Part shown: piece after piece, positions 5,361 through 41,301 of the stretch
Layout: the number at the start of each line of letters is the position of its first letter
Numbering within the stretch: position 1 is the first letter of the stretch
Assembly: GCF_902498805.1 (NCBI RefSeq)
Contig: NZ_LR701577.1
Coordinates: 62,001-126,000, forward strand
Source of the DNA: Imperialibacter sp. EC-SDR9
Lineage (GTDB): Bacteria > Bacteroidota > Bacteroidia > Cytophagales > Cyclobacteriaceae
Direction of reading: 5' to 3'
DNA: 64,000 bases
Program-made: the position numbers and the translations under genes
Notes under the pieces: model-generated
Told to the model about the DNA's origin: nothing
Databases searched by the model: none
What the model saw: only the letters and a program-made list of their open reading frames with translations

Positions 5361-5363
5361 TTG

Positions 5364-5434
5364 AGGTCGAGAGCGGATTCGAACCGCTGTAGGAGCTTTT
5401 GCAGAGCTCTGCCTAGCCACTCGGCCACTCGACC
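5364..5434 (-). tRNA. tRNA-Cys (GCA)
   Basis: The minus strand folds into a 71-base cloverleaf. The acceptor GGTCGAG pairs with CTCGACC, the T-loop is TTCGAAT, and the anticodon loop CTGCAAA is closed by GAGCT/AGCTC, giving anticodon GCA. The discriminator base is T (U73), as expected for cysteine tRNA. The 3' CCA is not encoded. Confidence 0.95.
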
Positions 5435-40496: not shown

Positions 40497-40531
40497 AAAA
40501 AAAACCGGTAGAACGAAATTCATACCGGTTT
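40497..40531 (-). terminator. Terminator downstream of the tRNA-like gene
   Basis: On the minus strand AAACCGGTA / TACCGGTTT forms a 9-bp stem with a 12-base loop, followed by a T-run (40504-40497). It begins 30 bases after the CCA of the tRNA-like gene. Confidence 0.75.
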
Positions 40532-40560
40532 CCAAATAAACAACATTAACCCAAAAATGA

Positions 40561-40685
40561 TGGCTGTAGGAGAAGGATTCGAACCTCCACGGAGCAGTTA
40601 GGTCCACACGAGCTCTATGTGGACTTTATTCCTTATCCCCACCCCCGAGACAGGAGGGCATGGCTGCCAATTTCATCACCCTACA
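40561..40685 (-). tRNA. Atypical tRNA-like gene with a 53-base variable region (anticodon reads GUC)
   Basis: The minus strand folds as a tRNA: acceptor TGTAGGG/TCCTACA (7 bp), a 3-bp D-stem ATG/CAT with GG in the loop, anticodon stem CCCTC/GGGGG with loop CTGTCTC, T-stem GGAGG/CCTTC with loop TTCGAAT, G73 and an encoded CCA. The region between the anticodon and T-stems (40641-40589) is 53 bases and contains a perfect 7-bp hairpin GTCCACA/TGTGGAC. The nominal anticodon GUC would be Asp, but normal tRNA-Asp has a short variable loop, and position 37 is a pyrimidine. Function in translation is therefore doubtful. Its own terminator follows. Confidence 0.65.
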
Positions 40686-40767
40686 TTGTGATCTGCAAGT
40701 CAATTCATCTAATTGACTGCAACAAAATTAACAAGAGTTTGATTTTATTAAAATATTTTTAATAAAT

Positions 40768-40839: not shown

Positions 40840-41301
40840 ATGAGTAAAAATTACGAAATTGATAATGTAGACTTGAAGATTCTGAACCTTTTGATGGAAG
40901 ATGCCAAGATTCCATACACTGAAATTGCCAAAAAGGTGTTCGTTTCGGGGGGTACAGTTCACGTGAGAATGAAAAAACTTGAAGAAATGGGCGTTGTTCA
41001 GGGCACCACTCTCAAGTTAGACTATTCCAAACTAGGGTACGATATTACGTGCTTTATCGGTATTTACCTTCAAAAAAGCTCTCTATATGATGAGGTCGTT
41101 GAGCGCTTGAGGGAAATTCCCGAAATTGTAACCGTCAACTACACCACCGGTAACTATAGTATCTTCGTCAAGCTTCACTGCAGAGACACCAAACATCTGA
41201 GAGAAGTGCTTCATGACAAGATTCAAAAGGTGGAAGGAATTGAAAGGACGGAAACCCTGATTAGCCTCGAAGAAAGCCTGAGCCGCCATATCAGTTTTTA
41301 G
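40840..41301 (+). CDS. Lrp/AsnC family transcriptional regulator
   Basis: The 153-residue protein has an N-terminal helix-turn-helix (LKILNLLMEDAKIPYTEIAKKVFVSGGTVHVRMKKLEEMG region, about residues 10-50) and a C-terminal RAM ligand-binding domain (about 68-150; YDITCFIGIYL, TGNYSIFVKLHC). Such proteins form octamers and respond to amino acids. It lies between the tRNA-like gene and the suf operon but is separated from suf by a long terminator-like hairpin, so it is transcribed alone. Confidence 0.92.
   Translation: MSKNYEIDNVDLKILNLLMEDAKIPYTEIAKKVFVSGGTVHVRMKKLEEMGVVQGTTLKLDYSKLGYDITCFIGIYLQKSSLYDEVVERLREIPEIVTVNYTTGNYSIFVKLHCRDTKHLREVLHDKIQKVEGIERTETLISLEESLSRHISF

Follow-up and report, generated by a model that had tools for sequence, protein, structure and literature searches.

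A conserved tRNA-like RNA beside an AsnC-type regulator gene in Bacteroidota and its possible role as a non-decoding carrier in asparagine synthesis

The window analysed here, a stretch of 64,000 nucleotides from Imperialibacter sp. EC-SDR9, carries a tRNA-shaped RNA gene of 125 nt on the minus strand (40561..40685), with nucleotide 1 at 40685 and an encoded CCA ending at 40561. A sequence-only reading had placed the gene correctly, and the parts it listed (cloverleaf stems, GG in the D loop, a TTCGAAT T loop, G73 and CCA) can all be seen by eye in the window copy. As judged by eye, the acceptor stem has 7 bp, the D stem 3 bp, and the anticodon and T stems 5 bp each. The 5' strand of the acceptor stem (40679..40685) starts with U1 G2 and pairs with 40571-40565; the D arm occupies 40660..40676, the anticodon arm 40642..40658, with the loop CTGTCTC and a nominal anticodon GTC at 40651-40649, and the T arm 40572..40588. 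The discriminator G73 lies at 40564 and C74 at 40563, the CCA at 40563-40561 being within the RNA. The variable region comprises 53 nt (RNA nt 45-97), and its long arm (40591..40640) is built from an outer stem of 4 bp (40640-40637 with 40594-40591) and an inner hairpin (40624-40602), whose perfect 7 bp (40624-40618 with 40608-40602) had been pointed out before, as had the 53-base length. The whole RNA scores 139.3 bits against the covariance model R1 (model span 40685-40563), whose training set included the window copy among others.

On the same strand, a putative promoter -7 box, TAATTTTG, was found by eye at 40723..40730; the Bacteroidetes consensus for this box is TAnnTTTG, and similar boxes are visible by eye upstream of several relatives. 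The 5' leader contains an 8-bp hairpin (40698..40718, by eye). Downstream of the RNA, a U/G-rich 3' tail, TTTTTGGGTTAATGTTGTTTATTTG (40533..40557), for which the own genome gives a single match with as many as 3 mismatches allowed, is followed by a terminator-like 9-bp inverted repeat and a U run (40502..40531, by eye). The latter agrees with the terminator proposed from the letters; a terminator scan reported no match at 40531-40502, because the loop of 12 in this repeat exceeds the scan's loop limit of 8. The own genome holds a single copy of the RNA. Divergent from it lies the gene of an AsnC-type regulator (40840..41301, plus strand), named by NCBIfam and structure comparison. Elsewhere in the window, an ordinary tRNA-Cys (GCA) is encoded on the minus strand (5363-5434).

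The folding energy of the single window sequence was uninformative (z = 0.12), and support for the fold comes from comparison. When 29 sequences were aligned, as the earlier reading had proposed, 98.3% of the cells were paired, compared with 50.5-61.8% for slid partners, and 10 of 29 pairs had changed on both sides. Compensatory changes were found in the long arm too: both its outer stem and its inner hairpin covary, and the outer pairing GGGG...CTCC (40640-40637 / 40594-40591), suspected from the sequence, has changed on both sides in 3 of its 4 pairs. Acceptor pairs 4-7 are variable and covarying, and in the D arm model pairs 10-26 and 11-25 have changed on both sides. A structure-free alignment of 130 distinct cores had 98.2% of its cells paired and 14 of 24 core pairs changed on both sides; in the controls slides gave 54-62% and shuffles at most 91.9%. 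The pairs of the T arm were kept in these cores, while one D pair was unpaired in 18/130 and one anticodon pair in 9/130. A tRNA fold of the acceptor, D, anticodon and T arms is thus supported by compensatory changes, and at the level of aligned sequences the gene encodes a structured RNA with a conserved class-II tRNA fold of the tRNA-Leu type.

G73 and C74 are present in every full-length copy, although the filter itself required a terminal GC, and short remnants with other ends (L054:304-415 and L083:5760-5817) are excluded from this statement. Only 10 of the 105 copies counted have a C following G73-C74, so the encoded CCA, real as it is in the window copy, is incidental and not a feature of the family. 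Remnants of the RNA, at L233, L054 and L083, are what one would expect of a decaying tRNA or a relic of a mobile element that no longer has a function. Against this stand the compensatory changes across the phylum and the retention of the neighbouring gene, as well as the searches of mobile elements: a phage collection yielded 7 records, none of which covered more than 31% of the query (E 0.3), hence no match of useful length, and a plasmid collection yielded no match to the RNA. We regard a functionless relic as extremely improbable.

The RNA is widespread among relatives. A DNA search of 146 relatives gave matches in 117 (E<=0.01), the full-length ones 73-100% identical to the window RNA. 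The covariance model was then applied to 35 relatives (29 unmatched and 6 weakly matched) and recovered full-length copies in one of the unmatched relatives (G111) and in one of the weakly matched (G135), and a copy of 77 nt in G099. The other 32 showed no family match; on this recheck of six weak matches, 5 of the 117 DNA matches are therefore doubtful. A loop-pattern scan of GTDB contigs retrieved at least 119 stretches, which among the matches listed came mostly from Cytophagales, Saprospiraceae and Chitinophagales, with some labelled Flavobacteriales. In a phylum sample, 31 of 296 Bacteroidota genomes had a match of at least 73 bits, and two of these 31, G412 and G420, lie outside the class. 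Matches to R1 of about 49-62 bits over 83-89 nt were treated as ordinary tRNAs and left out of the counts, a treatment checked with ARAGORN in the own genome only and by eye at L194. Full-length copies range from 109 to 186 nt, most of the spread being accounted for by the variable arm, which is nearly gone from the 77-nt copy in G099.

A match to known models had been sought as a possible refutation, and none was obtained for the window copy with either Rfam 15, including tRNA (RF00005) and tmRNA (40500-40750, E<=1), or ARAGORN. In 8 further loci searched with Rfam (E<=0.01) the 77-nt copy at L193 was the sole tRNA match (40.8 bits), and L107 matched Thr_leader below threshold (33.5 vs 55). 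Among the 14 loci scanned with ARAGORN, of which L001 is the window copy and L225 and L233 have no full copy, the RNA was called as a gene only at L193. A search of the open-licence literature, a scope that leaves out a 2017 survey of 224 RNA motifs, found no description of the RNA, and passages of PMC8007984 and PMC9026213 contain nothing on it. The RNA belongs to an unnamed bacterial family that is wide in Bacteroidota and whose copy in the window is missed by Rfam 15 and ARAGORN.

For the anticodon loop, counts were taken from 81 distinct full-length copies that had been obtained with BLAST, the covariance model or the AsnC protein, and not with the loop pattern, since that pattern fixes GTCTC and biases the loop counts. 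The features of decoding are poorly kept in this set: U33 is present in 63/81 and a purine at position 37 in 6/81, with C at position 32 in 60/81. Other positions of the loop are nearly constant (G34 in 78, U35 in 81, C36 in 81 and C38 in 80), and so are the ends (U1-A72 in 81, G2-C71 in 80 and G73 in 81, where the filter had itself required the terminal GC). The exceptions are A34 or C34 in three copies and U38 in one; the 77-nt copy in G099 has A34. Including pattern-fetched copies (168 in all), U33 was found in 136, a purine 37 in 6, U1-A72 in 167, and positions 34, 35, 36 and 38 were kept in 164, 168, 168 and 167. The base taken as 20a, a position that we assigned by Leu-type numbering, is A in 29/29 alignment rows. 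Much of this invariance reflects kinship among the copies. In a decoding tRNA the loop would have the opposite pattern of conservation, which argues against decoding; the copies do not consistently keep the U33 and purine 37 of an elongator, and the window RNA is not called by a tRNA gene finder. The RNA is thus probably not a decoding tRNA, its decoding features having been lost, as the sequence-only reading had suspected.

The conserved bases point to aspartate. Passages of PMC9976931 give G73, G34, U35, C36 and C38 as aspartate determinants, with G2-C71 as a minor one, and the RNA carries all of them at the sequence level. GUC had been considered a misfit in a long-armed tRNA; on this count it is, with C38, what the loop conserves, and it belongs with G73 and G2-C71 to the aspartate set. 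U1-A72, according to passages of PMC9976931 and PMC4206432, confers amidation of Asp-tRNA(Asn), and G1-C72 together with U20a prevents it in tRNA-Asp; the RNA has U1-A72, no G1-C72 and no U20a, as expected at sequence level of a GatCAB substrate. The GUC anticodon, and the fact that ARAGORN calls the 77-nt copy tRNA-Asp, would also suit an extra tRNA-Asp decoding GAC/GAU, perhaps under stress. Such a tRNA would hardly lack U33 in 18 of 81 copies and a purine 37 in all but 6, nor does it account for the expanded arm or for the tandem copies found in 14 of 30 loci; with U1-A72 it would moreover be a substrate of GatCAB and place asparagine at aspartate codons. We consider an extra tRNA-Asp very unlikely.

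The long arm allows another non-decoding role, namely the donation of another amino acid, for instance serine, or of asparagine for a product other than free asparagine. A long arm with G73 would suit SerRS, as passages of PMC7609411 indicate. By eye, the arm is laid out as in tRNA-Leu and two unpaired bases precede the T stem, unlike in the own tRNA-Ser. SerRS is not known to use the anticodon, so that a serine reading would leave GUC and C38 free to vary; yet they are kept. Any donor of another amino acid also leaves the patterns of regulator, GatB and AsnB described below unexplained, and it is an unlikely reading overall.

In the NCBIfam comparison, the protein of the divergent gene scored best against AsnC (PRK11179; 175.9 bits), below the cut-off of 227, and is therefore called AsnC-type. 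The next family reached 87.9 bits and Lrp 57.4, leaving AsnC ahead by 88 bits, and the closest solved structure is E. coli AsnC (2cg4). A leucine (Lrp) reading of the neighbour was dropped on the grounds of these scores and this structure. In 60 of 108 RNA loci (58 of 104 without repeats), the first gene upstream of the RNA is of AsnC type and lies on the opposite strand; the loci are those from L031-L110 and L159-L187 that hold a full copy, with 39 further pattern-scan stretches left out. RNA and regulator are 122-245 nt apart in 59 of these 60, and each of the 60 regulators shares 55-86% identity with the window protein. Such a neighbour is missing from 48 of the 108 loci, 12 of which have less than 400 nt of upstream sequence. 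Starting from the protein, 30 regulator loci were fetched and 28 searched for the RNA, which adjoined the regulator in 15 (at least 60 bits) and was present as a remnant in one. Further neighbours are less constant, with SufB and an acyl-CoA ligase at 19 each (names by eye). At L164, L173 and L183 the next downstream gene on the same strand looks by eye like the tRNA m7G methyltransferase TrmB. Upstream of the G099 regulator (L225), the usual place of the RNA is taken by another tRNA-like sequence (GGCAGATGGCCGAGG...TCTGCC), which has a terminator and was matched by neither Rfam nor ARAGORN. An array of type III toxin-antitoxin kind was rejected, there being no common downstream gene.

The divergent arrangement has a parallel in gcvB/gcvA, where an sRNA lies divergent from its regulator, and it brings in the main rival to a role as a carrier, namely a purely regulatory role within the AsnC regulon, without biosynthetic turnover. 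The RNA could then be a tRNA-derived sponge for AspRS, GatCAB or asparagine status, or a sensor of these, or else an sRNA that acts through its 3' tail. The core motif of the tail occurs in 56 of 175 downstream stretches, compared with 2.6% after shuffling of single bases; it was not found in the remaining 119, among which inner array copies are included. A U/G-rich tail (TTTGGGTT...) often stands 3' of the last copy in relatives. At the Algoriphagus-type loci L223 and L224 a similar tail and terminator adjoin the regulator on its upstream side, with the RNA not there (by eye), so the tail may have a function of its own. A regulatory RNA predicts neither co-occurrence with GatB, nor exclusion of AsnB, nor the joining of U1-A72 to the aspartate set. 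Of the roles proposed from the sequence, the regulatory one thus stands as a serious yet rather improbable rival, behind that of a carrier. A mimic of the 16S 3' tail, based on CCUCC in the anticodon stem, was rejected, since in L182 and L184 this stem reads CCGTC/GACGG or CCGCC/GGCGG.

Co-occurrence was assessed in a single sample of 119 class genomes. An ortholog of the regulator is present in 27 of them, the line of at least 55% identity having been set at a gap in the results (55 to 49%). The RNA was found in 21 genomes, all among these 27, and in none of the other 92 under strict filters; its threshold of 3e-13 was chosen to exclude ordinary tRNAs and narrowly excludes the 77-nt copy of G099 (8.5e-13). 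GatB, by which GatCAB was judged, is present in 90 genomes, including all 21 with the RNA; the other 69 lack the RNA, which GatB alone therefore does not imply. An E. coli-type AsnB (E<=1e-100) was detected in 16 genomes, 14 at an identity of at least 69% and two at 49%, and in none of the 21 RNA genomes. Fisher p values for the RNA against regulator, GatB and AsnB were 2.6e-18, 0.0015 and 0.035, and 0.0068 for AsnB within the 27 regulator genomes, all with kinship ignored.

Three of the six regulator genomes without a match to the RNA model have an E. coli-type AsnB. G506, with GatB, encodes its AsnB (PRK09431, 784 bits) divergently from the regulator; in G526, also with GatB, a remnant RNA lacking the D and anticodon arms adjoins the regulator; G147 lacks GatB. 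The regulator tree places G147 as the sister of one RNA-bearing genome and G526 as the sister of two, both forks being starred, so that at least two replacements look independent. As for the other three, G099 has the short RNA and GatB and no AsnB, G434 has GatB with neither AsnB nor a match to the RNA, and G469 has none of RNA, GatB and AsnB.

The asparagine synthase family TIGR01536 was not decisive as a test for asparagine synthetase, 112 of 119 genomes having a match. Since 20 of the 21 RNA genomes hold such another AsnB-like protein, the RNA need not be their sole route to asparagine. The own genome has three matches, and the protein examined (633 aa) scored 493 bits against TIGR01536 (cut-off 267) and 331 against AsnB PRK09431 (cut-off 499). 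Single proteins from the own genome, G065 and G082 all pass TIGR01536 and miss the AsnB cut-off. By eye, the genes lie outside polysaccharide clusters in the own genome and G065, and apparently inside them in G082 and G152.

On balance, we lean towards the RNA being a non-decoding carrier dedicated to tRNA-dependent asparagine synthesis, a reading of sequence patterns. AspRS would load aspartate onto it through G34, U35, C36, C38 and G73, and GatCAB would take the charged RNA and amidate the aspartate to asparagine; GatCAB would accept it because U1-A72 replaces the G1-C72 of tRNA-Asp. The charged RNA could not read Asp codons, so asparagine would not be misincorporated and would be released as the free amino acid. 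All three steps, charging, amidation and release, are inferred from identity elements and genome patterns. The AsnC-type regulator would control the RNA, in the way that asparagine synthetase A is under AsnC in E. coli. For this carrier speak the joint retention of the aspartate set and U1-A72 while U33 and purine 37 are not retained, the AsnC-type neighbour, GatB in 21/21 and E. coli-type AsnB in 0/21 RNA genomes, and AsnB in three regulator genomes without a full RNA. Against it, or against its being the sole route, stand the other TIGR01536 member in 20 of 21 RNA genomes, A34 or C34 in 3/81 and U38 in 1/81 copies with A34 also in the G099 copy, and the long variable arm, which it leaves unexplained and which that copy nearly lacks. 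Passages of PMC9976931 state that bacterial tRNA-Asp has G1-C72, said to help AspRS, and this pair is missing from the RNA. Neither G434 nor G469 is explained by a carrier, and 48/108 loci have no AsnC-type neighbour. A broader proposal is more tentative, with chances a little short of even: a reusable RNA carrier and two housekeeping enzymes may replace asparagine synthetase under AsnC in much of Bacteroidota, with the variable arm assembling AspRS and GatCAB or speeding release.

The carrier proposed here would resemble the tRNA-Asn/AspRS/GatCAB route of Deinococcus, Thermus and Bdellovibrio in its use of U1-A72 for GatCAB and in the attachment of aspartate first (passages of PMC4206432). 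In those passages that route is seen in species without AsnA and AsnB, and the described synthesis uses tRNA-Asn, which serves translation too. Unlike it, the RNA has an aspartate-type loop, lacks decoding features and often adjoins an AsnC-type gene; with such a loop, an AspRS of the discriminating type would be enough, and the route would supply translation with no Asn-tRNA. If the carrier reading is true, a tRNA has been turned into a metabolic cofactor that combines an aspartate loop with the GatCAB pair. Among 18 of 547 genera, the same passages report Bacteroidetes that have AsnRS, GlnRS and GatCAB and lack an asparagine synthetase, and a carrier would suggest how these could make asparagine with a single AspRS. 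A broad RNA family is added whose window copy is unmatched by Rfam 15. In the divergence of the regulator from an asparagine-making gene, the locus would be akin to the AsnC-asnA pair of E. coli and the AsnC-type-AsnB pair of G506, except that here the divergent gene is an RNA.

By the model, the nearest ordinary tRNA of the own genome is tRNA-Leu GAG (56 bits). The RNA resembles class-II tRNA-Leu in the sequence of its D arm, its 3-bp D stem and the layout of its variable stem; in its D arm, and in the two bases that separate the variable stem from the T stem, it follows the own tRNA-Leu and not the own tRNA-Ser, as judged by eye. It differs from tRNA-Leu in U1-A72, its own anticodon loop, a hairpin domain inserted in the variable arm, and G73 in place of A73, which passages of PMC9976931 list for bacterial leucine identity. 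With allo-tRNAs and selC-like tRNAs it shares a long variable arm and odd anticodons, GUC being among theirs; in these the acceptor stem is longer and the T stem shorter (8/4, 9/3; passages of PMC7609411), and an allo-tRNA, which had been suggested earlier, is unsupported because the stems here are 7/5. Some copies carry further elements. A palindrome, CCCGATAGCTATCGGG or close to it, appears as if inserted at L023 (an array), L163, L036, L047 and L102, its sites being the anticodon arm of two tandem copies, variable arms, or the space between copies. A GGGTTGACCAC motif in the variable arm is common to long-armed lineages (L079, L068, L166 and others).
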